Part shown: in pieces, positions 43,291 through 61,720 of the stretch
Layout of the letters: each line of letters opens with the position of its first letter
Position numbering within the stretch: position 1 is the first letter of the stretch
Source of the DNA: Methanosarcina barkeri 3
Lineage (GTDB): Archaea; Halobacteriota; Methanosarcinia; Methanosarcinales; Methanosarcinaceae
Length of the DNA stretch: 64,000 nucleotides
Assembly: GCF_000970305.1 (NCBI RefSeq)
Contig: NZ_CP009517.1
Coordinates: forward strand, 1,984,001-2,048,000
Direction: 5' to 3'
Notes under the pieces: generated by a model
Told to the model about the DNA's origin: nothing
Database searches by the model: none
Seen by the model: only the letters and a program-made list of their open reading frames with translations
Position numbers and translations under genes: made by a program

Positions 43291-43549
43291 TTTTATACCT
43301 CATTAAGAATCGGTTTTAAATATTGTCTTTGTAAATTTTCGGTGATTATACAGAAGAAACGGCATTTATAAATCCGGAAAAAAGCTGAATACAAAAAATA
43401 CGGCTCTATTTTTGAAAAAATGTAGCCTTTCAGGTAAAAATTTTTATAACTCATCAAAATTTTTGCTGAAGGACTTGCCTGACTTTCCAATTTTTGGGGA
43501 AAATTTCAGGCATAGAGCTGTATAAAAAATAAGTGATTGTAGTTTTTTT
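43291..43549. other. 5' noncoding region of the giant propeller gene
   Basis: AT-rich, no gene seen. A TGAGGT ribosome site immediately precedes the TTG start. The first roughly 300 bases lack the leader sequence shared by the three PKD genes downstream; only the part beyond 43540 matches. Confidence 0.5.
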
Positions 43550-43670
43550 GAAGACCTCCTATGTTTTTATGGGGTTAGCGATTGTCTGGGCGGAAGAGTC
43601 GGGCCGCATTTCATATTTTGTGATGCGGTCGGATCAGGCTTCGGACCTTTTGAAGTGCTCAGAGCAACCG
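43550..43670 (+). ncRNA. Putative structured RNA element, copy 1
   Basis: About 121 nt. Hairpin 1: CCTAT (43556-43560 region) with AUGGG after a T-rich loop. Helix 2: CGATTG then TCTGGGC pair with GCTCAGA and CAACCG at the 3' end. Hairpin 3: CCGCAT (43604-43609) pairs with ATGCGG (43623-43628). Hairpin 4: CTTC pairs with GAAG before the closing strand. The same layout recurs in four other copies with compensatory changes. G-U pairs favour the plus strand, which is opposite to the flanking gene. No known RNA family recognised. Confidence 0.55.
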
Positions 43671-44157
43671 ATTTTATAGGTTATTTGATATATGCTGACG
43701 AAAATTACTATTTCCTGAACTTTCATTTTGGTTGTGACACTTATACTCAGTTACAGACATCAATATACAAATTTAAACGCTACAGGGATCAGTTCTAACT
43801 TCCCTGGCACCATTTGAACTTTTTTGAGTATAAATCTAATAAATATTGACATAAAGGTGATGTTGTATGAATTTTTATGTCTTTACTGACTACAAGTTGC
43901 AACTCCATGTTGGAGTAATTTTTTCTTCTGAAAGTCCACGTTTATCTGAACTACCTGATTAAATTAATTATATACAATTTAACTAAGTTTGTTTACTATT
44001 TCTACAAATAAAAATCTTCGGCTAATAATTATTACCTTCTTGGATAATGACTTCCATATTTGTTTCAAAAAGAATAAAAGCCTGAATCAAAAGATCTTAC
44101 TTTATGAAATGATTACGTTCAGATTATTTTTCAAAAAAGTTAAGAAGGGGCTCCCCT
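43671..44157. repeat. Duplicated noncoding segment shared by several surface genes
   Basis: The sequence from the structured element to the 3' end of the transcobalamin-like gene recurs almost unchanged at 48763-49215 (partly) and 57220-57708. Small frames within it, conserved between copies, follow from the duplication and are not treated as genes. Confidence 0.75.
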
Positions 44158-44913
44158 TCAGGAGGATTGTATCAGTTCAATAACGTTGTCTGCTTCATTA
44201 ATAATGTATTCTGCTTCTTCGGAAGAAAGATTGCCCCTATTTTCCTGCCTTTGGACAATATTCTTAAAGCACTGGAGTTTAATGATGGCTATCTGATCCC
44301 GGCCATTTTCCAGTGAATAAACTACACTTTCAAGGCTTGCTGTAAGAATACATTTTGTTAGAGGGGGAGTGTTAAGATTATCAATGTATCCCTGGAGATC
44401 TTCAATAGATGCTAATGCATCTTCAACTTCTACTTTTATATCAACAATATATGACGCATTTGCTGTATCCACAATGGCCTCATTAGCTGTATATTCGTAA
44501 GGAGCATACAGGAATGTAACCTGATCACCGTCTTTAATTACGTTCTGACTGAGTCCCAGTGGAGCAAGCTCACCGTTTATGTAAACAAACCATGATGTAC
44601 TTGCTCCATAATTATCTTGTACTCCGTTAATATCAGTAAGGTAAAAAGAACCATAGTCCTCATAGTACTCGTCAGATGCATTATATGTGAATCCGCTTGT
44701 CTCATCACTTGAAGCCGCATCAAGTACACCATGGTCTGTCAGGGTCTCCACCTGATAACTGGCAGAAAGATTGTTTGATGGAACGAAAGTAAATGTACCG
44801 TCTTCCAACTCGACAGTTCCATTAAAGATTTCAGCAGGTTGTGCTGCCGCCGTACCAATCATTATTGCACTGAGAAGTGCAATTAAGAATATACATGTTA
44901 TTTTATTTTTCAT
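44158..44913 (-). CDS. Exported DUF4430 (transcobalamin-C-like) protein
   Basis: 251 residues from the ATG with AGAGGAATAAAT upstream; an earlier in-frame ATG at 44994 lacks a site and would put 27 polar residues before the signal. Signal peptide MKNKITCIFLIALLSAIMIG then TAAAQPA. Residues about 30-145 form the DUF4430 domain, related to the beta-domain of transcobalamin: SFYLTDINGVQDNYGASTSW, FVYINGELAPLGLSQNVIKD and GDQVTFLYAPY. A C-terminal helical segment (about 150-251) has no recognised family. Binding of cobalamin is plausible from the fold but unproven. A truncated copy lies at 57709. Confidence 0.8.
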   Translation of the reverse strand: MKNKITCIFLIALLSAIMIGTAAAQPAEIFNGTVELEDGTFTFVPSNNLSASYQVETLTDHGVLDAASSDETSGFTYNASDEYYEDYGSFYLTDINGVQDNYGASTSWFVYINGELAPLGLSQNVIKDGDQVTFLYAPYEYTANEAIVDTANASYIVDIKVEVEDALASIEDLQGYIDNLNTPPLTKCILTASLESVVYSLENGRDQIAIIKLQCFKNIVQRQENRGNLSSEEAEYIINEADNVIELIQSS

Positions 44914-45494
44914 ATTTATTCCTCTTCCAAAATATATGCATGGCAAAAGAAAAAACTCATTAAGTGTTTTATCCTTATACTTCAACCCACACATGTTTAC
45001 TTATTTACTATTTTTTATATATAACTCCATTAATTTAGATCATAAGTGTTAGCAATAAGAGTAAAACTATTTTGATTGCAGTTTTCAAAGAGTATACATC
45101 AATATTTTTTTGGCAATACCCCTAATTTCTTGTAAATTTAATGTCAAATTTTCGTGTACGATCAGGCAGTATTGCAAATTTGCTGTAAATTTGAAGTCAA
45201 GTTTTTGTGTGTTCGATGGAGAATTGATCCACTTATATGAAATTTTTTATCCAATAACATTTTGAAAGGTATGACTTTACAGAGAAATCGGTGCATTATG
45301 ATCAATTAGCAAATTTTTCTGTAAAATTGTAAATTTTTCAAATGTAAGCAGTTAGATAATCTAACATCAAAAGAACTGAGATATGAAACGAGACAGTTAA
45401 TTTAAATGAACTTAAAAAAGTTAAGAAACCTGATCATAATGCCAGTCGTTGAAAAACAAGAACTGAAGACTGGCTTTCAACCCTAGCAAAACAA
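44914..45494. other. Intergenic region
   Basis: About 580 AT-rich bases, no gene seen. A segment TTGCAAATTTGCTGTAAATT and similar direct partial repeats lie near 45130-45200. Confidence 0.45.
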
Positions 45495-45547
45495 GGCTAA
45501 AGAGGTTGTTTTGCCAGATTTATCAATGATCTCTCAACCTTTTAGCC
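45495..45547 (-). terminator. 3' stem-loop, copy 2
   Basis: GGCTAAAGAGGTTG (45495-45508) pairs with CAACCTTTTAGCC (45535-45547), about 34 bases after the stop of the gene to its right; on the minus strand TTGTTTTG follows. Confidence 0.55.
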
Positions 45548-45580
45548 TTGGATCTCTTTTATCGTTTTTTAATTAAATGT

Positions 45581-48061
45581 TTATTCGTTTTCAGAATACG
45601 TCCCAGATTTCGTATTTGTTGTCACTTTTATGTAGTCGGTTTTTGCTACCGTGTTCCTGCCTACAACGTTCTTTACTGTCAAGTTAACAGTATATGTTCC
45701 TGCCTTGGAATACTTATGAGTCGGATTCTCGATAAATGACTTTGATCCGTCTCCAAACTCCCAGATCCAGCCAGAAGCCGTACCTGTACTTGTATCAGTA
45801 AATTTAACATTTAATGGTGCTTTTCCTGACGTTACACTGCTGGTGAAATTTGCAACAGGTTTTGATATTACGCTTATAAGTTCTGTTTTGGTTACTGTGT
45901 TACGTCCTGCAGCGTTCTTTACTGTCAAGTTAACAGTATATGTTCCAGCCTTAGAATATTTATGAATCGGATTCTCGACAAATGATCTTGATCCGTCTCC
46001 AAAATCCCAGATCCAGCCAGTAGGAATTCCTGTGCTTGCATCAGTAAATTTAACGTTCAATGGAGCTTTTCCTGACGTTACACTGCTGGTAAAGTTTGCA
46101 GCAGGTTTTGAGATCACTTTTACATAATCGGTTTCTGTAATCGTATTACTACCCTTAGCATTGGTAACAGTGAGTGTTACCGTATACTTTCCTGCTTTAG
46201 AATACTTATGCTTTGGATTCTGGATTGTGGACGATGTTCCGTCTCCAAAACTCCATTTCCATTTAGTAGGCATGTTACTACTCTTGTCAGTAAAAGCAAC
46301 TGTTAATGGTGTTTTTCCTGAAGCAGAAGATGCTGAAAAAGCAGCTACTGGCTTTCCGGGAGATGAAACAATGACTTTAATGTACCCGGTTTTTACTTCA
46401 GAATCGCTTCCACCAGGTCCGGTTACAGTGAGGTTGACAGTGTACGTGCCGGCAGTACCGTAAGTATAGGAAGGGCTTTGTTCGGTGCTATCTACAATGC
46501 CATCGTTATTAAAATCCCATGAATACGATGAGATATTGCCAGTTGACTGGTCTGTAAACTTGACAGTAAGAGGAGCAGTACCGTTCGTCACATCAGCTAG
46601 AAATGCAGAAATTGGCGGTTCAGAAGGTGTTGAGTTTTCAGAAACAGTGATATAGTCAGTCTTTACAGTGCTGTTGCTGTCAATGGAATTTGTGACTGTA
46701 AGGCTAACAGTGTAGTTGCCTGCGTCAATATAGGTATATACAGGGTTTTGTTCCGTACTGTCAACAGTACCGTCGTTATCAAAATCCCATGAATAAGAAG
46801 AGACATTACCGGTTGAAGTATCAGTGAAGTTGACAGTAAGAGGAGCGTCTCCAGAAGTCGGTGTTGCTGTAAAATCAGCAATTGGAGCGGAAGTAATCGG
46901 TAGTGCTTCAATTATTATATCATTTCCGTCAACTGTGATTTTACCCATAAGGGGTGCAGTGTCACTTCCGGAACCAATTGCATAAGGAGTATCACAGATT
47001 CCGTTGTTATCAGCATCTGCGCCTGTGTAGTCGTTATAGTAGTTGCCTAGAGAGGAGGTGTAGGACTCGTTTTTGTAGCTGTACTTTACAGTGCTACTGA
47101 TATACTGGACGGAGCCGGCCGGTGAACCGTCATTGATGTTGACGGTGTTGTTAATGAAGTTGTTGTGGTAAACCTTATTGCCAGTGCCAGTTTTTCCGCT
47201 TTTCAAGTTAAAAGTAATCCCTACAGAATTGGAGTCAAAGGTGTTTCCAGTAATAATATTGCCATTACTTTTAGGATCTATAAGTAAACCTCCATAACCA
47301 TCAGCACTGGTACAGTGTGAAATGACATTATCACTGAATGTTATGTCGTTTCCTCCCTTGCCAATACTAACTGCATAGTTAGAAGTAACGTTTGTAAAGG
47401 TGTTACCTGTAATCACACCGCCGTTATTTACCCTGCCCGCATAACAATAACAATTATCAAACTGGTTTTCGGTAAGGATCAGTTTCCCTTGGACATTATC
47501 AACACCGCATGAAGAGGATCCGTTAACGAAAACATTATTTGAATATTCAACATTATTCAGGATAATTGAACTTAAATACACACCTTTGAATATACAGTTT
47601 CTGATTATAACATTGGTAGAGTCATAATCTGATCCACGGATTTCAACCCATCTCGTAGTGGACGATGAAAAGCTTATGTTCTCAATCAGGATATCATGGG
47701 CAGTTTCAATATTAGATAAGTCAAAATTTAGCGCATTGTAATCAATAAAATTAAAGGTTACTTTATCTGCACCTGCACCTATAAAAGATAGAGGTTTGTC
47801 GGATATAAATAAAACCTGATTTATGTCATACGTTCCAGGGTTGAAGTATAAGACATCTCCAGCCTGTGCTTCATTAATTTTTGAGAGAATATTATCTCCA
47901 GGATTGACATCAATAGTTTGTGCCGAAGCAGAACCAACAAAGGCAAACAACAGGATAAGGAATATACTTAAAACAAGGCCATGTTTGGCAATATTTTGTA
48001 TTCTGTTTTGTGCTTTATTTTGGGCTCTATTTTTTGTCATACTTTTTATAATTGTTTTCAT
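45581..48061 (-). CDS. Exported beta-helix/PKD repeat surface protein (paralogue A)
   Basis: 826 residues. Unusual polar N-terminus (MTKNRAQNKAQNRIQNIAK) precedes the signal core GLVLSIFLILLFAFVGSASA. Residues about 49-385: beta-helix rungs (INEAQAGDVLYFNPGTYDIN, NVIIRNCIFKGVYLSSIILN) ending in a NosD cap GNYYNDYTGADADNNGI. Then five PKD domains from about 390 to 820 (motif WDFDNDGTVDSTEQNPVYTY, later WSFGDGTSS, WDFGDGSRS, WEFGDGSKS). Outside of the cell; adhesion or matrix role likely. Ribosome site GGAGTAACAAT. Its leader (about 1.1 kb) is shared with paralogues B and C. Confidence 0.92.
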   Translation of the reverse strand: MKTIIKSMTKNRAQNKAQNRIQNIAKHGLVLSIFLILLFAFVGSASAQTIDVNPGDNILSKINEAQAGDVLYFNPGTYDINQVLFISDKPLSFIGAGADKVTFNFIDYNALNFDLSNIETAHDILIENISFSSSTTRWVEIRGSDYDSTNVIIRNCIFKGVYLSSIILNNVEYSNNVFVNGSSSCGVDNVQGKLILTENQFDNCYCYAGRVNNGGVITGNTFTNVTSNYAVSIGKGGNDITFSDNVISHCTSADGYGGLLIDPKSNGNIITGNTFDSNSVGITFNLKSGKTGTGNKVYHNNFINNTVNINDGSPAGSVQYISSTVKYSYKNESYTSSLGNYYNDYTGADADNNGICDTPYAIGSGSDTAPLMGKITVDGNDIIIEALPITSAPIADFTATPTSGDAPLTVNFTDTSTGNVSSYSWDFDNDGTVDSTEQNPVYTYIDAGNYTVSLTVTNSIDSNSTVKTDYITVSENSTPSEPPISAFLADVTNGTAPLTVKFTDQSTGNISSYSWDFNNDGIVDSTEQSPSYTYGTAGTYTVNLTVTGPGGSDSEVKTGYIKVIVSSPGKPVAAFSASSASGKTPLTVAFTDKSSNMPTKWKWSFGDGTSSTIQNPKHKYSKAGKYTVTLTVTNAKGSNTITETDYVKVISKPAANFTSSVTSGKAPLNVKFTDASTGIPTGWIWDFGDGSRSFVENPIHKYSKAGTYTVNLTVKNAAGRNTVTKTELISVISKPVANFTSSVTSGKAPLNVKFTDTSTGTASGWIWEFGDGSKSFIENPTHKYSKAGTYTVNLTVKNVVGRNTVAKTDYIKVTTNTKSGTYSENE

Positions 48062-48641
48062 ATTGTTACTCCATTATTTTTCATGTTGTCAAATAAGAAG
48101 GTAGGGATATGTTTGCTGTCTCCAGATTTTTAGGTTCAATCTATTAAGTTGGTGAATCTCCAGACATTTACATGGCAGATGAATTAGCTATAGAAACAGG
48201 TCTATCCGTATCCAGTGTTGTTAATAAGTACTCCAGCAATTACAGACAGCTATGACCTTATTTATGACAATAACACCTGCTAATACCTGCAATTTATGGA
48301 GCTAACACCATTCCAGAGATTCCTGTCGTTTCCAATACGGCTCAAACAAAAAACAAAAATTAAAAATATGTCCTCAAGTAAAAATACTTCAATACTCATC
48401 AAAATTTTATTGAAGATGAAACTGACTTACAAGTTATTTGAAAAACGTTTCACGTAAGAGCCACATAACCCACATTCTGCAGAACATGTACACGTAGAAG
48501 TTACTTACCCATTTACCCAAAATTATCCATTAAAGAATGGGCAGTTTTTTAAATAACTGATATTTTGGGAAAATAGATAGTATTTTTGTGTGCATCTGCG
48601 GAAAATAGGATTAAAGAAAAATAAGTTATTTCAGTTTTTTT
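48062..48641. repeat. Duplicated 5' region of surface gene A
   Basis: Nearly identical to 51800-52382 and 56516-57099. Contains the GGAGTAAC ribosome site, and a conserved stretch CGTTTCACGTAAGAGCCACA. It must hold the promoter, but no single TATA box stands out. Confidence 0.8.
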
Positions 48642-48762
48642 GAAGACCTCCTATGTTTTTATGGGGTTAACGGTTGTCTGGGCGGGAGAATCAGACCACA
48701 TTTCATATTTTGTGATGTGGTCGGATCAGGCTTCGGACCTTTTGAAGTGCTCAGAGCAACCG
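48642..48762 (+). ncRNA. Putative structured RNA element, copy 2
   Basis: As copy 1 but helix 2 begins CGGTTG (perfect pairing with CAACCG) and hairpin 3 is GACCACAT (48694-48701) with ATGTGGTC (48715-48722), a compensatory G-C to A-T change against copy 1. Confidence 0.55.
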
Positions 48763-49268
48763 ATTTTATAGGTTATTTGAAATATATACTGAACAAAGTT
48801 ACTATTTTCTGAACTTTCATTTTGGTTGTAATACTTATATTCAGTTACAGACATTAATATTACAAATTTAAACACTGTAGGAACCAGTTGTAACTTCCCT
48901 GGCACCATTTGAACTTTTTGAGTTTAAATCTAAAAAATATTGACATAAAGGTGATATTGTATGAATTTTTACGTCTTTACTGAATACAAGTTGCAACTCC
49001 ATGTTGGAGTAATTTTTTCTTCTGAAAGTCCAAGTTTATCTGAACTATCTAATTAAATTAATTATATACAATTTAACTAAGTTTGTTTACTATTTCTACA
49101 AATAAAAATCTTCGGCTAATAATTATTATCTTCTTGGATAATGACTTCCATATTTGCTTCAAAAAGAATAAAAGCCTGAATCAAAGTACTTTACTTTTAT
49201 AAAATGATTACTTTTCAGATTAGTTTTCAAACAAGTTAAGAAGAGTCTCCTCCTTCCTAGTAAAACAA
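48763..49268. repeat. Duplicated noncoding segment, diverging toward the 3' end
   Basis: Matches 43671-44157 and 57220-57708 until about 49215, where it ends close to the next PKD gene terminator. The transcobalamin-like gene that follows in the other copies is absent here. Confidence 0.65.
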
Positions 49269-49321
49269 GACTAAAGAGGTTGTTTTGCCAGATTTATCGA
49301 TAATCTCTCAACCTTTTAGCC
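49269..49321 (-). terminator. 3' stem-loop, copy 3
   Basis: GACTAAAGAGGTTG (49269-49282) pairs with CAACCTTTTAGCC (49309-49321), behind the stop of paralogue B. Confidence 0.55.
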
Positions 49322-49375
49322 TTGATTTTTTATCGTTTTTCAATCTAAAGTTTAGTCATTTTCAGATTATATCTC

Positions 49376-51799
49376 TTATTTTGTATTTGTTGTCACTTTT
49401 ATGTAATCGGTTTTTGTTGTCGTACTGATGCCTGCAGCATTTGTTGATGTCAGTGTCACTGTATAACTTCCGGTTTTAGAATACTTATGTTTTGGATTCT
49501 GGATTGTCGACGATGTTCCGTCTCCAAAACTCCACTTCCATTTAGTTGGTGAACCTGTGCTTGCGTCAGTAAAGGCAACCGTTAATGGCGTTTTTCCTGA
49601 CGTTGGAGTTGCAGAGAATTCAGCAACCGGTTTTGCTGTCACTTTTATATATTCTGTTTTTGTTACCGTGTTACGTCCTGCAGCATTCTTTACTGTCAAA
49701 TTAACAGTATATGTTCCTGCTTTAGAATACTTATGAACCGGATTCTCAACAAATGACCTTGATCCGTCTCCAAATTCCCAGATCCAGCCAGAAGGTGTAC
49801 CTGTGCTTGTGTCAGTAAACTTAACGTTCAATGGAGCTTTTCCTGAAGTAACACTGCTGGTGAAGTTTGCAACCGGTTTTGCTATCACTTTTATATAGTC
49901 TGTCTCTGTTACCGTGTTACTGCCTTTAGCATTGGTAACTGTAAGTGTTACCGTATACTTTCCTGCTTTAGAATACTTATGCTTTGGATTCTGGATTGTG
50001 GAAGACGCTCCGTCTCCAAAATTCCATTTCCATTTAGTAGGCATGTTACTACTCTTGTCAGTAAAAGCAACTGTTAATGGTATTTTTCCTGAAGAAGGAG
50101 ATACTGAAAAAGCAGCTACTGGCTTTGCTGGAGATGAACCAGTGACTTTAATATACCCGGTTTTTACTTCAGAATCGCTTCCACCAGGTCCGGTTACCGT
50201 GAGGTTTACAGTGTACGTGCCGGCAGTACTGTAGGTATAGGAAGGATTCTGTTCGGTGCTATCTATAATGCCATCGTTATTAAAGTCCCACGAATAAGAT
50301 GAGATATCGCCAGTTGACTGGTCTGTAAACTTGGCAGTAAGAGGAGCAGTACCAGAAGTCGGAGTAGCTGTGAAATTTGCAACAGGTGCTCCAGGCAGCG
50401 GTTCGCTTACAACAATGTAATCCGTCTTTACTTCAAAATCGTTTCCGTCTGCGTTAGAAACTGTAAGGTTGACAGTATAGTTACCAGCAGCAGTGTAAGT
50501 GTAAATTGGGTTCTGTTCAGTGCTGTCTACATTCCCATCGTTATCAAAATCCCATGAATAAGAAGAGACATTACCGGTTGAAGTATCAGTGAAGTTGACA
50601 GTAAGAGGAGCGTCTCCAGAAATCGGTGTTGCTGTAAAATCAGCAATTGGAGCGGAAGTACTTGGTGGTGCTTCAATTATTATATCATTTCCGTCAACTG
50701 TGATTTTACCCATAAGGGGTGCAGTGTCACTTCCGGAACCAATTGTGTAAGGAGTATCACCTATTCCGTTATTATCAGCATCTGCGCCTGTGTAGTCGTT
50801 ATAGTAGTTGCCTAGAGAGGAGGTGTAGGACTCGTTTTTGTAGCTGTACTTTACAGCGCTACTGATATACTGGACGGTACCAGCCGGCGAACCGTCATTG
50901 ATGTTGACGGCATTGTTAATAAAATTGTTGAGGTAGATCTTGTTGCCGGCACCAGGTATTCCATTTCCCTCCGTTCCGACATTTATTCCTTCAGAATTTG
51001 AATCAAAAGTGTTTTCAGTAATGATATTGTTTTTACTGTTTTTACTATCGCCAGATATTAGTATAGCTCCAAGGGTACAGTTTGAAAAAACATTGTCTTT
51101 TAATGTTAAGTAGTTGTTGCATTCCATTATTCTACATGCAGGAATTTCAGAAGTATTCGTAAAGGTGTTACCTGTAATATTACCACTAACGCGCATCATA
51201 TTCCAACTGACCTTATCCATCCGGTTTTCGGTAAAGGACAGCTTCTCAGCGGAAATACTGTTAGATATGTCATAGGCATATGGAGATATGAAAACATTAT
51301 TCGAAACATCAGCATTCTTCAGGTTACCTAGAGTTACACTACTCATTACACAGTTTTCAATTACAACATTGCTGTCACCGTAATCCGACCCGTAGACATT
51401 AAAACCATTAGAGAAACTAATATTTTCAACCCGAATGTCGGAAGCACTTTCATAATCGCCGTAATTAATAGATGTGGTTTTTCCAAGTACAGTTACCTTA
51501 TCTGCTCCTGAGCCTATTAGTGATACAGGTTTATCATTTATAGCCCAATTTCGGGTCATCTGATAAGTTCCAGGGTTGAAGTAGATGACATCTCCAGCCT
51601 GTGCTTCATTAAGGAGGATGGAGCGGACGTCATCACTAGGGTTGACCTCAATAGTTTGTGCCGATGCAGAGCCGATAAAGGCAAACAGCAGGATAAGGAA
51701 TATACTTAAAACAAGGCCATGTTTGGCAATATTTTGTATTCTGTTTTGTGCTTTATTTTGGGCTCTATTTTTTGTCATACTTTTTATAATTGTTTTCAT
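49376..51799 (-). CDS. Exported beta-helix/PKD repeat surface protein (paralogue B)
   Basis: 807 residues. Same layout as paralogue A: polar N-terminus, signal GLVLSIFLILLFAFIGSASA, beta-helix to about residue 375 (IEVNPSDDVRSILLNEAQAG and NVVIENCVMSSVTLGNLKNA) and five PKD domains from about 381 (WDFDNDGNVDSTEQNPIYTY, WNFGDGASS, WEFGDGSRS, WSFGDGTSS). The beta-helix differs from that of A but is nearly identical to that of paralogue C; the PKD part is shared with all. Ribosome site GGAGTAACAAT. Surface/adhesin role likely. Confidence 0.92.
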   Translation of the reverse strand: MKTIIKSMTKNRAQNKAQNRIQNIAKHGLVLSIFLILLFAFIGSASAQTIEVNPSDDVRSILLNEAQAGDVIYFNPGTYQMTRNWAINDKPVSLIGSGADKVTVLGKTTSINYGDYESASDIRVENISFSNGFNVYGSDYGDSNVVIENCVMSSVTLGNLKNADVSNNVFISPYAYDISNSISAEKLSFTENRMDKVSWNMMRVSGNITGNTFTNTSEIPACRIMECNNYLTLKDNVFSNCTLGAILISGDSKNSKNNIITENTFDSNSEGINVGTEGNGIPGAGNKIYLNNFINNAVNINDGSPAGTVQYISSAVKYSYKNESYTSSLGNYYNDYTGADADNNGIGDTPYTIGSGSDTAPLMGKITVDGNDIIIEAPPSTSAPIADFTATPISGDAPLTVNFTDTSTGNVSSYSWDFDNDGNVDSTEQNPIYTYTAAGNYTVNLTVSNADGNDFEVKTDYIVVSEPLPGAPVANFTATPTSGTAPLTAKFTDQSTGDISSYSWDFNNDGIIDSTEQNPSYTYSTAGTYTVNLTVTGPGGSDSEVKTGYIKVTGSSPAKPVAAFSVSPSSGKIPLTVAFTDKSSNMPTKWKWNFGDGASSTIQNPKHKYSKAGKYTVTLTVTNAKGSNTVTETDYIKVIAKPVANFTSSVTSGKAPLNVKFTDTSTGTPSGWIWEFGDGSRSFVENPVHKYSKAGTYTVNLTVKNAAGRNTVTKTEYIKVTAKPVAEFSATPTSGKTPLTVAFTDASTGSPTKWKWSFGDGTSSTIQNPKHKYSKTGSYTVTLTSTNAAGISTTTKTDYIKVTTNTK

Positions 51800-52382
51800 A
51801 TTGTTACTCCATTATTTTTCATGTTGTCAAATAAGAAGGTAGGAATATGTTTGCTGTCTCCAGATTTTTAGGTTCAATCTATTAAGTTGGTGAATCTCCA
51901 GACATTTACATGGCAGATGCATTAGCTATAGAAACAGGTCTATCCGTATCCAGTGTTGTTAATAAGTACTTCAGCAATTACAGGCAGCTATGACCTTATT
52001 TGTGACAATAATACCTGCTAATACCTGCAATTTATGGAGCTAACACCATTCCAGAGAGTCCTGTCGTTTCCAATACGGCTCAAACAAAAAACAAAAATTA
52101 AACATGTTCTTAAGAAAAAATACTTCAATACTCATCAAAATTTTTACTGAAAGACAAAACTGACTTACAAGTTATTTGAAAAACGTTTCACGTAAGAGCC
52201 ACATAACCCACATTCGGCAGAACATGTACACAGAAATAGAGATTACTTACCCATTTGCCCAAAATTATCCATTGAAGAATGGATAACTTTTGAAATGACT
52301 GATATTTTGAGAAATGGATAGTATTTTTGTGTGTATCTGCGGGAGGTGGGATATAAAGAAAAGTAAGTAGTTCCAGTTTTTT
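51800..52382. repeat. Duplicated 5' region of surface gene B
   Basis: Nearly identical to the regions upstream of paralogues A and C. Confidence 0.8.
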
Positions 52383-52506
52383 GAAGACCTCCTATGTTTT
52401 TATGGGGTTATCGATTGTCTGAGCGAAAGAGTCAAGCCGCATTTTTGGTTTCATGACTGCGGCAAAATCAGGTTTCAGACTTTTTGAAGTGCCAGGTCAA
52501 CTTGAC
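52383..52506 (+). ncRNA. Putative structured RNA element, copy 3 (most diverged of the PKD-linked copies)
   Basis: Hairpin 1 is kept. Hairpin 3 is now GCCGCA with TGCGGC, with a different loop, so the helix is maintained despite sequence change. Helix 2 is weaker: its 3' arm reads CCAGGTCAACTTGA. Confidence 0.45.
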
Positions 52507-53017
52507 TTTTAAGAGATTATTGGAACATATACGCAGGAAATTTATTGTTTCCTGAAATTTTACCCCGCAGATAACGTATTTGTAATCAGTTAATAGATTT
52601 GCACACAGCATAAATGGTATGGCGATTTTTTTAGCACGATCCAAACGTAATAACTATTGCAGTTTATAAATTTGTACATTAGCTGAATACAAATAACGAT
52701 TGTCAGATTGGGATAAACTTTCCTTCCTGAAGTCTAGGTTTTATCATGAATATCTGATGAAACTAATTATACGTGATAATCTAACTAATCGTTAAATATT
52801 TATATAAATATTAACTTATGACTAATTATTATTAGCTTTTCAGATAACAACTTGTTTTTACATTTATATAATTAAGACTGATTTTAAAATTGAGAAATTT
52901 TTAAATTTTTTCGTGTTTTTTGTTTCATTTGCTTCCTAGAATCCTCAGATTTGAGATTATTTTTTAATAAGGTATCGCCATTATCAAAAAAATCAACTTT
53001 AAATTACACGAAAAAAG
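52507..53017. other. Unique noncoding region, homologous in part to 60160-60240
   Basis: AT-rich, no gene. From about 52940 it resembles 60160-60235 (shared words GAGATT, TTTTTTAA, TATCAAAAA), which shows the ancestral site of the insertion that follows. Confidence 0.5.
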
Positions 53018-53200
53018 GCTCTTCGCTATTTCGAGTGGGTAACTTACAATGATTTCCTAAATGTCGAAGTAGTATATCCAAAATTAAAAATATTTCTGGT
53101 TGAAAATACATTTAAGCTTGATATTCTCTTATAGCTTAGCTACATTATAATTCAGCAATTAGTTTCAACCCACACAAAATAGCGAAAAACCCGAAAAAAG
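53009..53200. mobile_element. MITE-like insertion with 9-bp target duplication
   Basis: Insert 53018-53191 (174 bp) flanked by CGAAAAAAG at 53009-53017 and again at 53192-53200. Inverted ends: left TTCGCTATTTCGAGTGGGT (53022-53040), right ACCCACACAAAATAGCGAA (53168-53186), 17 of 19 complementary. No transposase. The homologous segment near 60223-60236 has a single CGAAAAAG and no insert, the empty site. Left end matches the dispersed elements at 13457 and 29976. Confidence 0.8.
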
Positions 53201-53845
53201 ATAAATTTTCCCATTTTGTCATATAATGCCTCCTCATTAGTCATCGGTTAAGGAATTTTCTTGCCTGAAAACTATCGATTTTGCACTTAATCCTGATCAA
53301 ACTTTAACCTTCTTCTATGAGATCGATGCCCTGTTCCATTTCAAAATCGGTTAAAATTTATACTGTTGCGGAAATGGAGGCAGTTTGCCACGAGTCCTCA
53401 CTTAACCGAAGATATAGAAATCATTTCATGAAACTCTACAATATAACCCAAATTTGACAGAATTCATTAATTGACAAAGTATTTTTCTACAAAAAACGTA
53501 TACTATTGACGCAGAATTTTTCGGAAAATGAAAATAGCAAAAAATCGAGAACAATGTATAGAAACATTAAATGTAGGGCAAAAACAGGAGCATGAAGCTC
53601 CTTTTTTCATTTTAATTTTTATTTTTCTGTCAAATTAGGGATATAAGAGTTCTATAAAGCCAAAAGTTTTGTAGTAAGCTATTGAAAACCGTAAAACGAA
53701 CGCTGGCTTTTTACTCTATTAAAATAAGGAAAAAGGGTTGTTTTGTCAGATTTGATAAATAATTTCCCCCACTGCCCATTCACTTTGATTTCTTTTATCG
53801 TTTTTCAATTAAGGATTTAATCGTTTTAGATTATATATTCAGTTT
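53201..53845. other. Noncoding region downstream of surface gene C
   Basis: AT-rich, no gene. Near 53726-53790 a diverged version of the 3' stem-loop segment seen behind the other PKD genes is recognisable, but its arms no longer pair well. Confidence 0.5.
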
Positions 53846-56515
53846 TTAGACTGCTGTCACTTTCATATAATTTGTTTTTGTTGTCGTACTGCTGCCTGCA
53901 GCATTTGTTGCCGTCAACGTGACAGTATAGTTTCCAGCTTTGGAATACTTATGCTTTGGATTCTGGAGTGTGGACGATGCACCGTCTCCAAAGTTCCATT
54001 TCCATTTACTTGGTGAACCTGTACTAGTGTCAGTAAAAGCAACCGTCAACGGGGACTTTCCTGAAGTAACACTGCTCGTGAAGTTTGCAACAGGTTTTGC
54101 TGTCACTTTTATATAATCGGTTTTTGTTACCGTGTTGCTGCCTACGGCGTTCTTTACTGTCAACTTAACAGTGTATGTTCCTGCTTTACTGTACTTATGA
54201 GTCGGATGCTCGACAAATGACTTCGATCCGTCTCCAAACTCCCAGATCCATGCAGCAGGTGTTCCTGTGCTTGTATCAGTAAATTTAACGTTCAATGGTG
54301 CTTTTCCTGAAGTAACACTGCTGGTAAAGTTTGAAACAGGCTTTGCTGTCACTTTTATATATTCCGTTTTTGTTACCTTGTTACTGCCTGCAGCATTCTT
54401 TACTGTTAAGTTAACAGTATATGTTCCTGCTTTACTGTACTTATGAGTTGGATTCTCGACAAATGACTTTGATCCGTCTCCAAACTCCCAGATCCAGCCA
54501 GAAGCCATACCTGTGCTTGTGTCAGTAAATTTAACGTTTAATGGCGCTTTTCCTGACGTAACACTGCTGGTGAAGTTTGCATCAGGTTTTGATATAACTT
54601 TTATATAATCGGTTTCTGTTATCGTATTACTACCCTTAGCATTGGCAACGGTGAGTGTTACCGTATACTTTCCTGCTTTGGAATACTTATGCTTTGGATT
54701 CTGGATTGTGGAAGACGCTCCGTCTCCAAAACTCCATTTCCATTTAGTAGGCATGTTACTACTCTTGTCGGTAAAAGCAACTGTTAATGGTGTTTTTCCT
54801 GAAGCAGAAGATGCTGAAAAAGCAGCTACTGGCTTTCCGGGAGATGAAACAGTGACTTTAATGTATCCGGTTTTTACTTCAGAATCGCTTCCATCAGCGT
54901 TGGAAACAGTAAGGTTGACAGTGTACGTGCCTGCCGTACCGTAAGTATACGAAGGACTCTGTTCGGTGCTATCTATAATGCCATCATTATCAAAGTCCCA
55001 TGAATACGATGAGATATTGCCAGTTGACTGGTCTGTAAACTTGACAGTAAGAGGAGCAGTACCGTTCGTCACATCAGCTAGAAATGCAGAAATTGGCGGT
55101 TCAGAAGGTGTTGAGTTTTCAGAAACAGTGATATAGTCAGTCTTTACAGTGCTGTTGATGCCAATGGCATTTGTGACTGTAAGGTTAACAGTGTAGTTGC
55201 CTGCGTCAATATAGGTATATACAGGGTTCTGTTCGGTGCTATCTATAATGCCATCGTTATTAAAGTCCCATGAATAAGAAGAGACATTACCAGTTGAAGT
55301 ATCAGTGAAGTTGACAGTAAGAGGAGCGTCTCCAGAAGTCGGTGTTGCTGTAAAATCGGCAATTGGAGAGGAAGTACTCGGTAGTGCTTCAATTATTATA
55401 TCATTTCCGTCAACTGTGATTTTACCCATAAGGGGTGCAGTGTCACTTCCGGAACCAATTGCATAAGGAGTATCACCTATTCCGTTATTATCAGCATCTG
55501 CACCTGTGTAGTCGTTATAGTAGTTGCCTAGAGAGGAGGTGTAGGACTCGTTTTTGTAGCTGTACTTTACAGCGTTACTGATATACTGGACGGAGCCGGC
55601 CGGCGAACCGTCATTGATGTTGACGGTGTTGTTAATGAAGTTGTTGAGGTAGATCTTGTTGCCGGCACCAGGTATTCCATTTCCCTCCGTTCCGACATTT
55701 ATTCCTTCAGAATTTGAATCAAAAGTATTTTCAGTAATGATATTGTTTTTACTGTTTTTACTATCGCCAGATATTAGTATAGCTCCAAGGGTACAGTTTG
55801 AAAAAACATTGTCTTTTAATGTTAAGTAATTGTTGCATTCACCTATCCAACATGTAGGAATTGAAGAAGTATTCGCAAAGGTGTTACCTGTAATATTACC
55901 ACTAACGCGCATCATATTCCAACCGACCTTATCCATCCGGTTTCCGATAAAGGTCAGCCTCTCAGCGGAAATACTGTTTTGTACATCATAGGCATATGGA
56001 GATATGAAAACATTATTCGAAACTTCAACATTCTTCAGGTTACCTAGCGATACACTACTCATGACACAATTTTCAATTACAACATTGCTGTCACCGTAAT
56101 CCGACCCGTAGATAGAAAAACCATTAGAGAAGCTAATATTTTCAACCCGAATGTCGGAAGCACTTTCATAATCGCCGTAATTAATAGATGTGGTTTTTCC
56201 AAGTACAGTTACCTTATCTGCTCCTGAGCCTATTAGTGATACAGGTTTATCATTTATAGCCCAATTTCGGGTCATCTGATAAGTTCCAGGGTTGAAGTAG
56301 ATGACATCTCCAGCCTGTGCTTCATTAAGGAGGATGGAGCGGACGTCATCACTAGGGTTGACCTCAATAGTTTGTGCCGATGCAGAGCCAACAAAGGCAA
56401 ACAGCAGGATAAGGAATATACTTAAAACAAGGCCATGTTTGGCAATATCTTGTACTCTGTTTTGTGCCTTATTTTGGGCCCTATTTTTTGTCATACTTTT
56501 TATAATTGTTGTCAT
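53846..56515 (-). CDS. Exported beta-helix/PKD repeat surface protein (paralogue C)
   Basis: 889 residues. Starts MTTIIKSMTKNRAQNKAQNR then signal GLVLSIFLILLFAFVGSASA, a beta-helix almost identical to that of paralogue B through residue 375, and six PKD domains from about 382 (one more than A or B: WDFNNDGIIDSTEQNPVYTY, WDFDNDGIIDSTEQ, WSFGDGASS, two WEFGDGSKS and a final WNFGDGASS). Blocks shared with A in one domain and with B in another indicate gene conversion. Surface role likely; no anchor seen. Ribosome site GGAGTAACAAA. Confidence 0.92.
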   Translation of the reverse strand: MTTIIKSMTKNRAQNKAQNRVQDIAKHGLVLSIFLILLFAFVGSASAQTIEVNPSDDVRSILLNEAQAGDVIYFNPGTYQMTRNWAINDKPVSLIGSGADKVTVLGKTTSINYGDYESASDIRVENISFSNGFSIYGSDYGDSNVVIENCVMSSVSLGNLKNVEVSNNVFISPYAYDVQNSISAERLTFIGNRMDKVGWNMMRVSGNITGNTFANTSSIPTCWIGECNNYLTLKDNVFSNCTLGAILISGDSKNSKNNIITENTFDSNSEGINVGTEGNGIPGAGNKIYLNNFINNTVNINDGSPAGSVQYISNAVKYSYKNESYTSSLGNYYNDYTGADADNNGIGDTPYAIGSGSDTAPLMGKITVDGNDIIIEALPSTSSPIADFTATPTSGDAPLTVNFTDTSTGNVSSYSWDFNNDGIIDSTEQNPVYTYIDAGNYTVNLTVTNAIGINSTVKTDYITVSENSTPSEPPISAFLADVTNGTAPLTVKFTDQSTGNISSYSWDFDNDGIIDSTEQSPSYTYGTAGTYTVNLTVSNADGSDSEVKTGYIKVTVSSPGKPVAAFSASSASGKTPLTVAFTDKSSNMPTKWKWSFGDGASSTIQNPKHKYSKAGKYTVTLTVANAKGSNTITETDYIKVISKPDANFTSSVTSGKAPLNVKFTDTSTGMASGWIWEFGDGSKSFVENPTHKYSKAGTYTVNLTVKNAAGSNKVTKTEYIKVTAKPVSNFTSSVTSGKAPLNVKFTDTSTGTPAAWIWEFGDGSKSFVEHPTHKYSKAGTYTVKLTVKNAVGSNTVTKTDYIKVTAKPVANFTSSVTSGKSPLTVAFTDTSTGSPSKWKWNFGDGASSTLQNPKHKYSKAGNYTVTLTATNAAGSSTTTKTNYMKVTAV

Positions 56516-57099
56516 ATTTTGTTACTCCATAATTTTTCATGTTGTCAAATAAGAAGGTAGGGATATGTTTGCTGTCTCCAGATTTTTAGGTTCAATCTAT
56601 TAAGTTGGTGAATCTCCAGACATTTACATGGCAGATGAATTAGCTATAGAAACAGGTCTATCCGTATCCAGTGTTGTTAATAAGTACTCCAGCAATTACA
56701 GACAGCTACGACCTAATTTATGACAATAACACCTGCTAATACCTGCAATTTATGGAACTAACACCATTCCAGAGATTCCTGTAATTTCCAACACGGCTCA
56801 AACAAAAACAAAAATTAAAAATATGTCCTCAAGCAAAAATACTTCAATACTCATCAAAATTTTATTGAAGATAAAACTGACTTACAAGTTATTTGAAAAA
56901 CGTTTCACGTAAGAGCCACATAACCCACATTCTGCCAGAACATATGCACAGAAGTAGAAACTACTTACCCATTTGCCCAAAATTATCCATTAAAGAATGG
57001 GCAGTTTTTTAAATAACTGATATTTTGAGAAAACGGATAGTATTTTTTGTGCATCTGCAGAAAGTAGAATTAAAGAAAAATAAGTTATTTCAGTTTTTT
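56516..57099. repeat. Duplicated 5' region of surface gene C
   Basis: Nearly identical to those of A and B; ribosome site GGAGTAACAAA. Confidence 0.8.
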
Positions 57100-57219
57100 G
57101 AAGACCTCCTATGTTTTTATGGGGTTAACGGTTGTCTGGGCGGGAGAATCAGGCCGCATTTCATATTTTGTGATGTGGTCAGATAGGCTTCGGACCTTTT
57201 GAAGTGCTCAGAGCAACCG
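57100..57219 (+). ncRNA. Putative structured RNA element, copy 4
   Basis: Helix 2 as in copy 2. Hairpin 3 is GCCGCAT with ATGTGGT: one strand matches copy 1 and the other copy 2, leaving G-U pairs if transcribed from the plus strand but C-A mismatches on the minus strand. Confidence 0.55.
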
Positions 57220-57708
57220 ATTTTATAGGTTATTTGAAATATATACTGAACAAAGTTACTATTTTCTGAACTTTCATTTGGTTGTGACACTTATACTCAG
57301 TTACAGACGTTAATATTAAGTTTAAACGCTACAGGGATCGGTTATAACTTCCCTGGCAGCGTTCGAACTTTTCAGGATTTAATTTAAATTTAAATATTGA
57401 CATGAAGGTGATATTGTATGAATTTTTACGTCTTTACTGACTACAAGTGCAACTCCTTATTGGAGTAATTTTTTTATTCTGAAAGTCCACGTTTATCTGA
57501 ACTATCTGATTAAATTAATTATATACAATTTAACTAAGTTTGTTTACTATTTCTACAAATAAAAATCTTCGGCTAATAATTATTATCTTCTTGGATAATG
57601 ACTTTCATATTTGTTTCAAAAAGAATGAAAGCCTGAATCAAAAGATCTTACTATATAAAATGATTATTTTTCTGATTATTTTTAAAAAAGTTAAGAAGGG
57701 TTTCCCCT
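57220..57708. repeat. Duplicated noncoding segment (copy of 43671-44157)
   Basis: Near-identical over about 490 bases to the sequence before the transcobalamin-like gene 3' end. It leads directly into that gene's truncated copy. Confidence 0.75.
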
Positions 57709-58047
57709 TCAGGAGGATTGTATCAGTTCAATAATGTGATCTGCTTCATTAATAATGTATTCCGCTTCTTCGGAAGAAAGATTGCACCTATTTTCCTGCC
57801 TTTAGACAATATTCTTAAAGCACTGGAGTTTAATGATGGCTATCTGGTCCCGATCATTTTCCAGTGAATAAACTACACTTTCAAGGCTTGCTGTAAGAAT
57901 ACATTTTGTTAGAGGAGGAGTGTCAAGGTTATCAATGTATCCCTGGAGATCCTCAATAGATGCTAATGCATCCTCAACTTCTACTCTTATATCAGCAACA
58001 TATGACGCATTTGATGTATCTACAATGACTTCGTTAGCTGTATATTT
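57709..58047 (-). pseudogene. Truncated copy of the transcobalamin-like gene
   Basis: C-terminal part only, about 110 codons, ending ELIQSS like the intact copy. It has a premature stop: CAA (Gln in NIVQRQEN of the intact gene) is TAA at 57802-57804. The DUF4430 domain is missing: the sequence jumps near 58047 to what corresponds to the leader of the intact gene, so an internal deletion of roughly 420 bases removed it. Confidence 0.88.
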
Positions 58048-58626
58048 TTCAGATTTTATTCATCTTCCAAACTACATTTGTGAAGAAAGGAAAAATATAT
58101 CAAAAATTTTATTTTTATACTCTTGTTTTCGTATATTTGTATATTCTAGTTTTATATCCATAAATTTTTGATTTATATAACAAATATGATTAAATATACG
58201 ATAATGTTACTTTCAATATCGATTATAGATTATTTACGAACCTAAATTCCGTTTAAACTAAATGATGAAATAAGAAACTGGAGACCTAATCTTATTCTTT
58301 TGAGTTACAGTTATCATCCAAAAAAAGCGGACTATATACTTTTGAAGATTATAGATAATAGCCTTCTTTAAATTTTATCTCCTCAAATTCCCTCATAAAT
58401 AACATTTACTTGCTATCGTTTTTGGAATAGCTCAAAATTATACAATTATTATTTTTGTTCGATAGTCAAAAAACAGAAGTGGGAGACCTTCAATAAAATC
58501 ACGAAGTTGGAAAGTTTAGGACATTTCAACATCATAGATTTGAAACAGTAGACTTTCCAGGGGAGGAGAAGGTATAGCTGGAATAGTTATTCTACGGATC
58601 ATTAAAGAAAAAAGAGGAATAGGATA
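58048..58626. other. Intergenic region
   Basis: AT-rich. The first 100 bases resemble the leader of the transcobalamin-like gene at 44914-45050. No gene. The ribosome site for the propeller gene (AGAGGAATAGGATA) lies at its end. Confidence 0.5.
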
Positions 58627-59907
58627 ATGAAAAATAAACATTTTTCAATGTTAGCATGCGTAATGGTAATGCTTGTGGCATTTTCATCGGTAGCAGCCGC
58701 AAGTAACTGGTCACAGTTCCAGAAAAATGAAAAACATACAGGTATAACAACCGATGACGGACCTGATGATGCCACTATTTCCATAAATGGGAACATCCCT
58801 GCCGGTAGTGGAATTGAGACTGTTCCTGTTATACTGGGTGACTATGTATATGTGGAAGGAGCAAGCAATCTCTACAAATATGAAAAATCTACACTTAATT
58901 ATGTAGCTGAGTGTAGCCCCGCTATAGTGACAGCAGGAGGAATCCAGAATGCTAACCCCGCTTCAGATGGCAACAATATCATTTATGTCGTGGACAGTGG
59001 CTTTGGTTCTAATCAACAAAAAATTACAGCTGTCTATGCCAACAACATGACTACGAAGTGGAGTACAAACTTTGCTCCGGCAGCACAGCAGTGTTCCTGT
59101 CCCGTCACATATTACAATGACAACGGCGTAGGAAAGCTTTTCGTAGGAACCGTCAACATGAGCGCGACCGACCCGGTTAACCTGAGCGATGATGGTACAT
59201 ATTTTGCTTTCTATGCAGATAATGGTACTGAGATTTGGAGTCGAGATAGCACAACGGGTGGTGGCTACTACTGGGCAGGCGCCGTAGTTGTGGGAGACTT
59301 TTTAGTATATCCTGACGATGCTGGGACATTGACATCTGTCTATATCTCCGATGGAACAAAAGTTGATGAGAAAGATCTGTCAAATAAACAGATACGATCA
59401 TCTGCTGCTTATAATACGGATGATCAGCTTATATATGTCGCTGGGAAAGACAAATATGCGCATGCCGTTGCAATTAATCCCAACACCGGTATGTTAGGCA
59501 CACACACAACAAGCTCCCAGATGGCATATAGTAGCACTTCAACGCCAGCATACAACGCGGCTGATGACAGGATTTATGTGGGGTGTGGCTCTATGGTTAA
59601 TGGTGGTTGTTTGTACTGTTTGAATGCTACCACTCTGACTACCATCTGGAGAGCGCCTCAGAATTCACTTATTGGTAATATCCAGTCCTCACCAGCAGTC
59701 GCCGATGACGGTATAAACAACCCGCTGATATTTGTTACAGGTAATGATGAAGATGGGCTTATATATCGCATAACAGATTCAGGTAGCAGCTATAGCATCA
59801 CATCCGTTGGACCACCAAATGCTACATATAGCCTTGCAGGCGTAGCAATATCCGACAATTATGCATACTTCGGAAATGACGATGGCTATCTTTACAAGGT
59901 TAATTAA
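58627..59907 (+). CDS. Exported PQQ-type beta-propeller protein
   Basis: 426 residues. Signal peptide 1-25 (MLACVMVMLVAFSSVAAAS), then a beta-propeller built from PQQ-like repeats: NWSQFQKNEKHTGITTDDGP (first blade start), YYWAGAVVVGDFLVYPDDAG, CGSMVNGGCLYCLNATTLTT and SLAGVAISDNYAYFGNDDGY. It is a stand-alone version of propeller 1 in the giant protein at 38737, with which it shares blade patterns such as SGAVVVGNYLVYP. No PKD domains or anchor. AGAGGAATAGGATA ribosome site. Ligand and role unknown; surface binding is likely. Confidence 0.9.
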   Translation: MKNKHFSMLACVMVMLVAFSSVAAASNWSQFQKNEKHTGITTDDGPDDATISINGNIPAGSGIETVPVILGDYVYVEGASNLYKYEKSTLNYVAECSPAIVTAGGIQNANPASDGNNIIYVVDSGFGSNQQKITAVYANNMTTKWSTNFAPAAQQCSCPVTYYNDNGVGKLFVGTVNMSATDPVNLSDDGTYFAFYADNGTEIWSRDSTTGGGYYWAGAVVVGDFLVYPDDAGTLTSVYISDGTKVDEKDLSNKQIRSSAAYNTDDQLIYVAGKDKYAHAVAINPNTGMLGTHTTSSQMAYSSTSTPAYNAADDRIYVGCGSMVNGGCLYCLNATTLTTIWRAPQNSLIGNIQSSPAVADDGINNPLIFVTGNDEDGLIYRITDSGSSYSITSVGPPNATYSLAGVAISDNYAYFGNDDGYLYKVN

Positions 59908-59916
59908 AAAGATATT

Positions 59917-59950
59917 GCAAAGGTGAAAACCTTTGCGTATTATTTTTTAT
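59917..59950 (+). terminator. Intrinsic terminator of the propeller gene
   Basis: GCAAAGG (59917-59923) pairs perfectly with CCTTTGC (59930-59936), followed by GTATTATTTTTTATTG. Confidence 0.8.
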
Positions 59951-60257
59951 TGAGATCAGTTCACAAAGAACTGTTCATTGTTTTAATAGAAGTTCAGTAT
60001 TTTAAGTTGAATATCCCGTAACAAGCTATAGAGATATTAGACTGAATAAAAGCTTATAGCTAACGATTCTTAGCTTGTTAGTTAATATCCTGCTTATTAA
60101 TTACAAAAAAGGAAAAGGCTTCCAAGTTTTATTTCATATTTTTCGCTCTATCAGCTAGAATCTTCAGGCTTGAGATTGTTTTTTAAATCAAGTAACGCCT
60201 TTATCAAAAATGAACGTTAAATCATGCGAAAAAGATATATTTCCCCATTTCGTTATA
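59951..60257. other. Intergenic region containing the empty site of the 53.0-kb insertion
   Basis: No gene. From about 60160 to 60240 it matches the sequence around the insertion at 53009-53200, with a single CGAAAAAG at about 60229 and no insert. Confidence 0.55.
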
Positions 60258-60372
60258 GACTTCCTCCTATGTTTTCATAGGGGTTAGGTTAGCCTGTGCG
60301 GAACCTGTATACTCCTTATAAGTGGCGTATTCAGGAAAGGAATTCGGACTCCTTGAAGTGGCAGGCTAACCG
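60258..60372 (+). ncRNA. Putative structured RNA element, copy 5 (best paired)
   Basis: Hairpin 1 CCTATG (60266-60271) with CATAGG (60276-60281), perfect. Helix 2 GGTTAGCCTG (60287-60296) with CAGGCTAACC (60362-60371), ten perfect pairs. Hairpin 3 CCTGTATAC (60304-60312) with GTATTCAGG (60327-60335), eight of nine. The primary sequence differs much from copies 1-4 while the pairing is kept or improved. Confidence 0.6.
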
Positions 60373-61720
60373 TCATCCGAGAAAAACGTGAAATTAAAGA
60401 GTATTTGAGACCCCAGAAAAGGGGCCTTTAATTGTCTTTCAGGTCTTTTTTGCGTTTTTTGAATTTTAAGGAAAATGTACGGAACTATTTTTCAGTGAGG
60501 TTCATAGATTATGCAGCTGATACCTGCTTTCAGTATCTTCTACATAAACTTGGCTGTGCTGGCTGTATCTGGTCTTTTTCATTTGGGTTGAACGAAGAGT
60601 TCTTAAGGAGGTATTATGGAAGGTATACTGCTTAACTCTTGTATTATCAGTTAGCAGGTGGTCATAATGAGTTAAACTGGTTTAACACCATTACTTCCAT
60701 TTTTCAGCACATCGGTTCCAAAGTACATCCACAAATCTGAAATTTTTGAATCTATCTATGAATCAATGGACTTCACATTAAAATGGATTTATTTTTGGAA
60801 CCTATACACTGTAATCTTAGTAACAGGATATAAGTCTAACAAAAACGATAATAAGTTTGATCTTTAAAGGCAACATTGAAAAATGATCTATGAAATTGTC
60901 TCTGATCCACGAAATTGTTTCTATTAATATTGTTCATATAAACTTGTCATAAGGAAAGAGGAACACAGTCAAAAAAACGTTTTTTGTAATTACTTTCTAT
61001 TAATTTGAATTATTCATAAATTATAATTATTTTCATTTTAAATAATACCTTAACGTAAGATATATTTATCTTGAATATCTGTCCCTTTTATTTTATACAA
61101 ACTTTTGACTTTGCTAATTTTCAACTTTGTAATTTTTATATTTTATTAACTTTTATATTTTGTTAATTTTTATATTTTGTTTTTTATAAGTATGAATTTT
61201 CAAAATATTTTATTTGTACTGCAAGTCCGCCTATTAAACCAATTATAATTCAATAAATAGCACTTTAGGAAATTCTTTGGCCTATTTCCTATTTATTGTT
61301 ACCTTATTGGCTAAAGATTATTACCCAAAATCTTAGTCTTTTATACAAGTAAACTAAAATTGAGCTGAAGTTACGTAATTGTTTACATATTGAGGTGAGG
61401 AATCGAGAACTTGTGAGGCTATTTTTCTTTAAAATGTTTTTTAATAACAGGTGTTAAATGATGTTTTTCTTTGCATTGAGAAGTAAAGTTTACTTTAGTT
61501 ACTTATATACAATGCTATTTCTCTTTCTTACTAATCTAATTTTTCATGTCTACTGATGAAGAATTGAAAAGTGAAAGAGTAAAGGATTTCTTGCAAAAAG
61601 CGTGCAGTCTCATAGTAATAATATCCTCACAACAACACATTTTAAATTATTTTTTAAATAATAGAAAGTCAATTATTTTGCGAAGTACTGAACGGTAAAT
61701 TATTTTCTGGAGTAGAGGTT
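60373..61720. other. Long AT-rich intergenic region before the CobN-like gene
   Basis: About 1.35 kb with no gene that can be supported. A frame at 60432-60635 has no family and no support. Near 61130-61190 a direct repeat based on TTTTATATTTTGTTAA occurs three times. The AGAGGTT ribosome site of the next gene is at its end. Confidence 0.5.

Follow-up and report, generated by a model that had tools for sequence, protein, structure and literature searches.

The 64,000-nucleotide (nt) stretch of Methanosarcina barkeri 3 analyzed here, referred to as the window (contig NZ_CP009517.1, positions 1,984,001 to 2,048,000, forward strand), carries five copies of a structured RNA element of about 120 nt. 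They belong to an RNA family that is new to Rfam but whose kind, either a leader or a regulatory small RNA, is already known. The family is lineage-restricted within Methanosarcina and linked to a surface-protein island, and two of its helices, H1 and P1, are under selection. We lean toward reading the copies as a lineage-restricted family of small-RNA genes on the + strand, each lying head-to-head with a giant surface-protein gene. An earlier note on this DNA had announced five copies of an unrecognized RNA beside surface-protein genes; alignment, repeat search and a covariance model built from relatives (R1) place all five within a few bases of the positions given there:

43554–43674, + strand: copy 1 (c1), type A structured RNA (R1 model, 116.5 bits, E 3.8e-23)
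48646–48766, + strand: copy 2 (c2), type A structured RNA (117.8 bits, E 2e-23)
52387–52507, + strand: copy 3 (c3), type A structured RNA, more diverged (102.6 bits, E 4.5e-20)
57104–57223, + strand: copy 4 (c4), type A structured RNA (113.6 bits, E 1.7e-22)
60262–60376, + strand: copy 5 (c5), type B structured RNA (92.8 bits, E 6.6e-18)

With as many as 3 mismatches allowed, the conserved stretch TTTCGGACCTTTTGAAGTG occurs four times in the window, where 0.02 occurrences would be expected. The type B copy had been described as sharing little primary sequence with the others, which does not hold: over the first 41 nt it matches c1 at 76% identity, and it has TTCGGAC and TTGAAGTG (UUCGGAC and UUGAAGUGGCAG as RNA) in common with the other copies. 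DNA and model searches detected no further copy in the 4.56-Mb genome. Across 31 Methanosarcina genomes, the covariance-model search proposed in the earlier note returned 46 copies of types A and B and about a dozen weaker ones of a third type, C, which runs antisense to surface-gene ribosome-binding sites and is not present in the window. The DNA and model searches agree on six carriers among the 31 genomes, M. spelaei MC-15 being one of them and another (G084) holding 16 model matches within a 110-kb stretch; no copy was found in the other searched genomes of the family, order and class.

Read on the + strand, the 5′ part of the element forms the hairpin H1 (CCUAUG-UUUU-CAUAGG), and a long closing helix, P1 (CGGUUGGUCUG/CAGACCAACCG plus an inner GCG/YGY segment), encloses two hairpins, a variable one (CCGCAU/AUGCGG in c1) and a short one around UUCGG. 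The hairpins quoted in the earlier note are present in the copies, and its statement that paired positions change together is borne out by a true compensatory change between c1 (CCGCAT/ATGCGG) and c2 (CCACAT/ATGTGG), for which c4 provides the intermediate (CCGCAT/ATGTGG). Folding thermodynamics was not used alone as proof of function. P1 and H1 were tested against a phylogeny-aware null, in which the inferred substitutions were re-placed on the tree while the number falling in paired columns was kept. Double-sided changes that preserve a pair on a single branch number 10, against 2.1±1.4 in the null, and paired cells amount to 90.3%, against 83.3±1.2%; neither value is reached by any of the 300 nulls. 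Sliding the partner by 1–3 columns lowers the pairing from 87% to 25–47%, a control that is partly circular because the alignment was fitted to the model. H1 and P1, including the inner GCG/YGY segment, are thus under selection. The CTTC/GAAG hairpin listed among the helices in the earlier note fares less well: it is nearly invariant and has no covariation support, since UUC/GAA hardly varies, and an overlapping AGGU/ACCU helix (AAGGA/UCCUU in c5) fits the copies at least equally well.

The small-RNA gene reading is based on this selection on the helices, on the divergent layout described below, on a conserved block 5′ of the RNA and on an oligo-T at its 3′ side. For type A, the 50 nt directly upstream of the RNA on the + strand are as conserved as the RNA itself (0.76), compared with 0.50–0.64 in the outer flanks, so that the conservation maximum covers the RNA plus these 50 nt. 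Promoter-like motifs were located upstream of the copies:

43515–43553, + strand: conserved block upstream of c1, AGAGCTGTATAAAAAATAAG...TTTTTTTGAAG, a possible promoter, with TATAAA at 43521–43526
52352–52357, + strand: TATAAA in the corresponding conserved block upstream of c3
60227–60240, + strand: CGAAAAAGATATAT, resembling a B recognition element and TATA box, about 25–35 nt upstream of c5 in the flank listing and kept in most type B copies

A weaker TTAAAG is found in the upstream blocks of c2 (48611) and c4 (57070). Among type B copies, an 8-mer that resembles a TATA box in 7 or more positions is present on the + side in 6 of 8 and on the − side in none of 8. A run of at least four T directly follows P1 on the + strand in 24 of the 38 type A copies; on the − side such a run is found in 1 of 38, and the rate for flank windows is 25%. 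The copies being related, neither set of counts is independent. Conserved hairpins also flank type A copies, as noted in the L085 and L097 loci and at about 43478–43513 of the window: GCCTGACTTTCC...GGAAAATTTCAGGC upstream, and downstream CAGGAAA...TTTCCTG, which reads for example CGGAAA...TTTCCG in L085. They appear to vary in a compensatory manner and could be terminators or operators.

Several results weigh against this reading. The unguided, R-scape-like covariation test on all column pairs finds nothing significant, because the copies are too clustered by subtype, and the covariation evidence therefore covers the named helices only; the covariation beyond phylogeny that the earlier note had asked for is found in P1 and H1 under the phylogeny-aware null and not in the unguided test. 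TATA scans for types A and C do no better than shuffled sequence, and type B lacks a T-run after P1. The four type A copies of the window show complementarity to the leaders of their own genes at chance level only (z −0.1 to −0.9). The base-pair statistics do not designate the + strand either. G·U cells outnumber A·C cells (118 vs 33), a count that we dropped as proof of the strand since the composition- and phylogeny-aware null removed most of its signal, the excess of G·U over A·C events falling within the composition- and tree-preserving null (33/200). By helix, the P1 events lean to the − strand, while those of H1 and of inner P1 lean to the + strand. Folding z-scores failed to decide, being equal for type A and favoring the − strand for type B. 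The + strand, assumed in the earlier note, is thus favored by the promoter-like block and the terminator-like T-run and left undecided by pair counts and z-scores, for which reason we hold that the RNA is probably, and not more firmly than that, made from it.

The copies adjoin surface-protein genes, as the earlier note had stated, and PQQ propellers, PKD and NosD/β-helix domains are found in the scanned cluster proteins. For 33 of the 38 type A copies, the orientation is divergent from a large open reading frame (ORF), whose start lies at a median of 454 nt. In the window, the divergent genes are:

38737–43290, − strand: surface gene facing c1 (PQQ propellers, PKD, NosD), start 263 nt from c1
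45581–48061, − strand: surface gene facing c2 (NosD, PKD), start 584 nt from c2
49376–51799, − strand: surface gene facing c3 (PKD repeats), start 587 nt from c3
53846–56515, − strand: surface gene facing c4 (NosD, PKD), start 588 nt from c4

Other genes of the island are:

44158–44994, − strand: DUF4430 protein, assigned by domain scan
58627–59907, + strand: 426-residue PQQ-propeller protein, whose relatives (E<1e-20) are found in precisely the six carriers of the RNA
61721–64000, + strand: CobN/Mg-chelatase-like gene with an N-terminal signal-like segment, 1.3 kb downstream of c5 and running off the window

The PQQ protein family and the RNA co-occur in the identical 6 of 31 Methanosarcina genomes, a coincidence that allows no simple probability because of shared ancestry. 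The RNA is linked to the surface-protein island. The DUF4430 neighbor is distributed more widely than the RNA-bearing genomes, and type B lies 1.3–1.4 kb upstream of a same-strand CobN-like gene in four genomes but not everywhere.

DUF4430 remnants are observed beside c4 (57712–58047, − strand, a 112-residue fragment with 89% identity and a stop) and beside c2 (about 49013–49312, a 300-nt repeat at 72%); a DUF4430 gene, the RNA and a surface gene were probably duplicated as one unit. Between 45557 and 56815, 246-nt PKD repeats and promoter-proximal stretches are up to 96–98% identical among the tandem surface genes, and this identity suggests recent duplication or gene conversion. The 1.3 kb between c5 and the CobN-like gene (60376–61721) contain no ORF of at least 80 residues, and three other genomes show a comparable gap. 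Within the CobN-like gene, a 21-nt tandem repeat (62150–62422) encodes a run of (K/E)TQxNS(G/S)-type heptapeptides that follows the N-terminal segment and precedes the chelatase domain. In G084 (locus L084, 18544–19956), the intact ORF covers only the C-terminal part of the CobN-like protein, which suggests that this copy is broken.

Comparison with catalogued RNA families identified no relative. Rfam 15 gives no match at the gathering threshold in the window and six cluster loci, and scans at permissive settings, covering c1, c5 and a further two loci, returned only chance-level, biologically absurd matches. A cobalamin riboswitch was considered because of the CobN-like and DUF4430 neighbors and rejected, no Rfam cobalamin model matching even at E up to 10. 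H/ACA, C/D and ribozyme assignments have no Rfam support either, the H/ACA and C/D boxes having been sought by eye only. No published structured RNA tied to these surface genes was found in the literature searched, subscription papers lying outside the search. The RNA-adjacent genes are of the same broad kind as the PKD/β-propeller surface-protein families of M. acetivorans, whose repeats have been described (PMC2447325).

The closest known system is sRNA162 of M. mazei, a small RNA (sRNA) encoded upstream of the oppositely oriented MM2442, 150 nt before its start; its 5′ end overlaps the MM2442 leader in antisense, and it also masks the ribosome-binding site of another gene in trans (PMC3510493). 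The upstream, divergent placement of 33 of the 38 type A copies resembles that of sRNA162. Type C likewise overlaps a leader and its ribosome-binding site, whereas the complementarity of the four type A copies of the window to theirs is at chance level. Unlike sRNA162, described as one RNA in M. mazei, the present family is multicopy and linked to surface genes, and the model finds no copy in the 25 other Methanosarcina genomes, M. mazei expected among them, the two RNAs being compared by description only.

Type C was first spotted by eye and then weakly detected by the A/B model. H1, the GCGGAA core and the UUCGGACCUU motif recur in it, and its H1 ends at the Shine-Dalgarno sequence of opposite-strand surface genes of the MNKHTLKIF type. 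Type C-bearing genes have leaders to which the neighboring type A RNAs are complementary (mean z −3.5), as is to be expected with C an antisense homologue of A. An antisense mechanism is therefore plausible for the part of the family where type C exists. In the window, with no type C and no leader complementarity, it is not supported, and we rejected antisense pairing of the window copies with the leaders of their own genes. The complement of UUCGGACCUUUUGAAG, used as a pattern for trans targets in this genome, gave the same counts as a reversed-pattern control once the copies themselves were excepted, and trans targets of this kind were likewise rejected.

Type C at first made a riboswitch-like leader on the − strand look compelling, and we retain it as the main rival. 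In this alternative, to which we give a minor though substantial chance, the RNA would be on the surface-gene strand as one or more tandem (B-A-C) structured domains of a long 5′ untranslated region, and its last hairpin, CCCUAUGAAAAAAUAGGAG, would hide the Shine-Dalgarno sequence of type C-bearing genes in the manner of a translational riboswitch or a protein-binding leader. In MNKHTLKIF-type genes, the AUAGGAG with which type C ends lies about 10 nt ahead of the start codon, and on the gene strand the type C hairpin pairs CCUAU with the AUAGG of the Shine-Dalgarno sequence, as in Shine-Dalgarno-sequestering leaders; the elements are also tandem in the gene-sense direction, the P1 G·U/A·C events lean to the gene strand, and the folding of type B is relatively favorable there. 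However, types A and B retain the AGGAG-containing hairpin though no start codon follows, a U·G pair of the + strand in type A H1 becomes a C·A mismatch on the gene strand, at the right side of B the gene-sense strand carries neither a T-run nor a promoter-like block, and leaders of 0.5–1.5 kb would be required. No riboswitch match in Rfam accompanies the likeness to translational riboswitches. A riboswitch is one of the roles listed in the earlier note; for a riboswitch or leader on the + strand, c1–c4 have no adjacent + strand gene.

That the copies are DNA-level elements or duplicated intergenic relics with no RNA function (a divergent promoter, an operator or a recombination site) is rather improbable. 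They do sit within tandemly duplicated gene units whose flanks are also alike over up to several hundred nt, but the compensatory changes in P1 exceed the phylogenetic null, conservation is maximal over the folded part and not over the whole unit, and a palindrome would not require a nested fold of 120 nt with two variable inner hairpins. The multicopy and patchy occurrence across species recalls the ends or cargo of a mobile element, either an insertion sequence (IS) or a miniature inverted-repeat transposable element, as the earlier note had also envisaged. This origin is very improbable: the scanned window and cluster proteins contain no transposase domain, the copies are found only at PQQ/PKD/CobN islands, with all five of this genome in the window, and their orientation to the genes is fixed. 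Of the matches that the earlier note had named as contrary evidence, one to an Rfam family was not encountered. A viral carrier was rejected, the single IMG/VR pattern match being a chance one inside a chaperonin gene. Among the roles listed in the earlier note, a small RNA fits best.

If the copies are small-RNA genes, the transcript would begin near GAAGACCUCC, fold H1 first and then P1 around the two hairpins, and end at the oligo-T. By analogy with M. mazei sRNA162 and the gene that it faces, it may regulate the neighboring surface genes. Type C would be complementary to the leader and Shine-Dalgarno sequence of the gene that it overlaps and would most likely act in antisense, and the A-type RNAs of the same array could pair in trans with the type C-bearing leader. 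In the window, where neither type C nor leader complementarity is found, a protein bound to the structure, or an effect at the transcriptional level in the shared intergenic region, would be as likely as antisense. A bolder proposal, which we regard as a long shot, is that the three RNA types of an island, A, B and C, constitute a cross-talking antisense network choosing which one of up to about a dozen giant surface proteins gets translated; all type C-bearing paralogues would then have leaders to which each A-type RNA is complementary.

To our knowledge, structured RNA families specific to archaea are few, as are archaeal sRNAs whose target is defined. The present family is tied to one surface-protein island and gives clear predictions on transcripts and targets. 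If the island is under its control, the RNA would illustrate the way in which a methanogen chooses between large alternative surface proteins, and, should the network exist, it would represent an archaeal RNA-based system of surface-protein choice.

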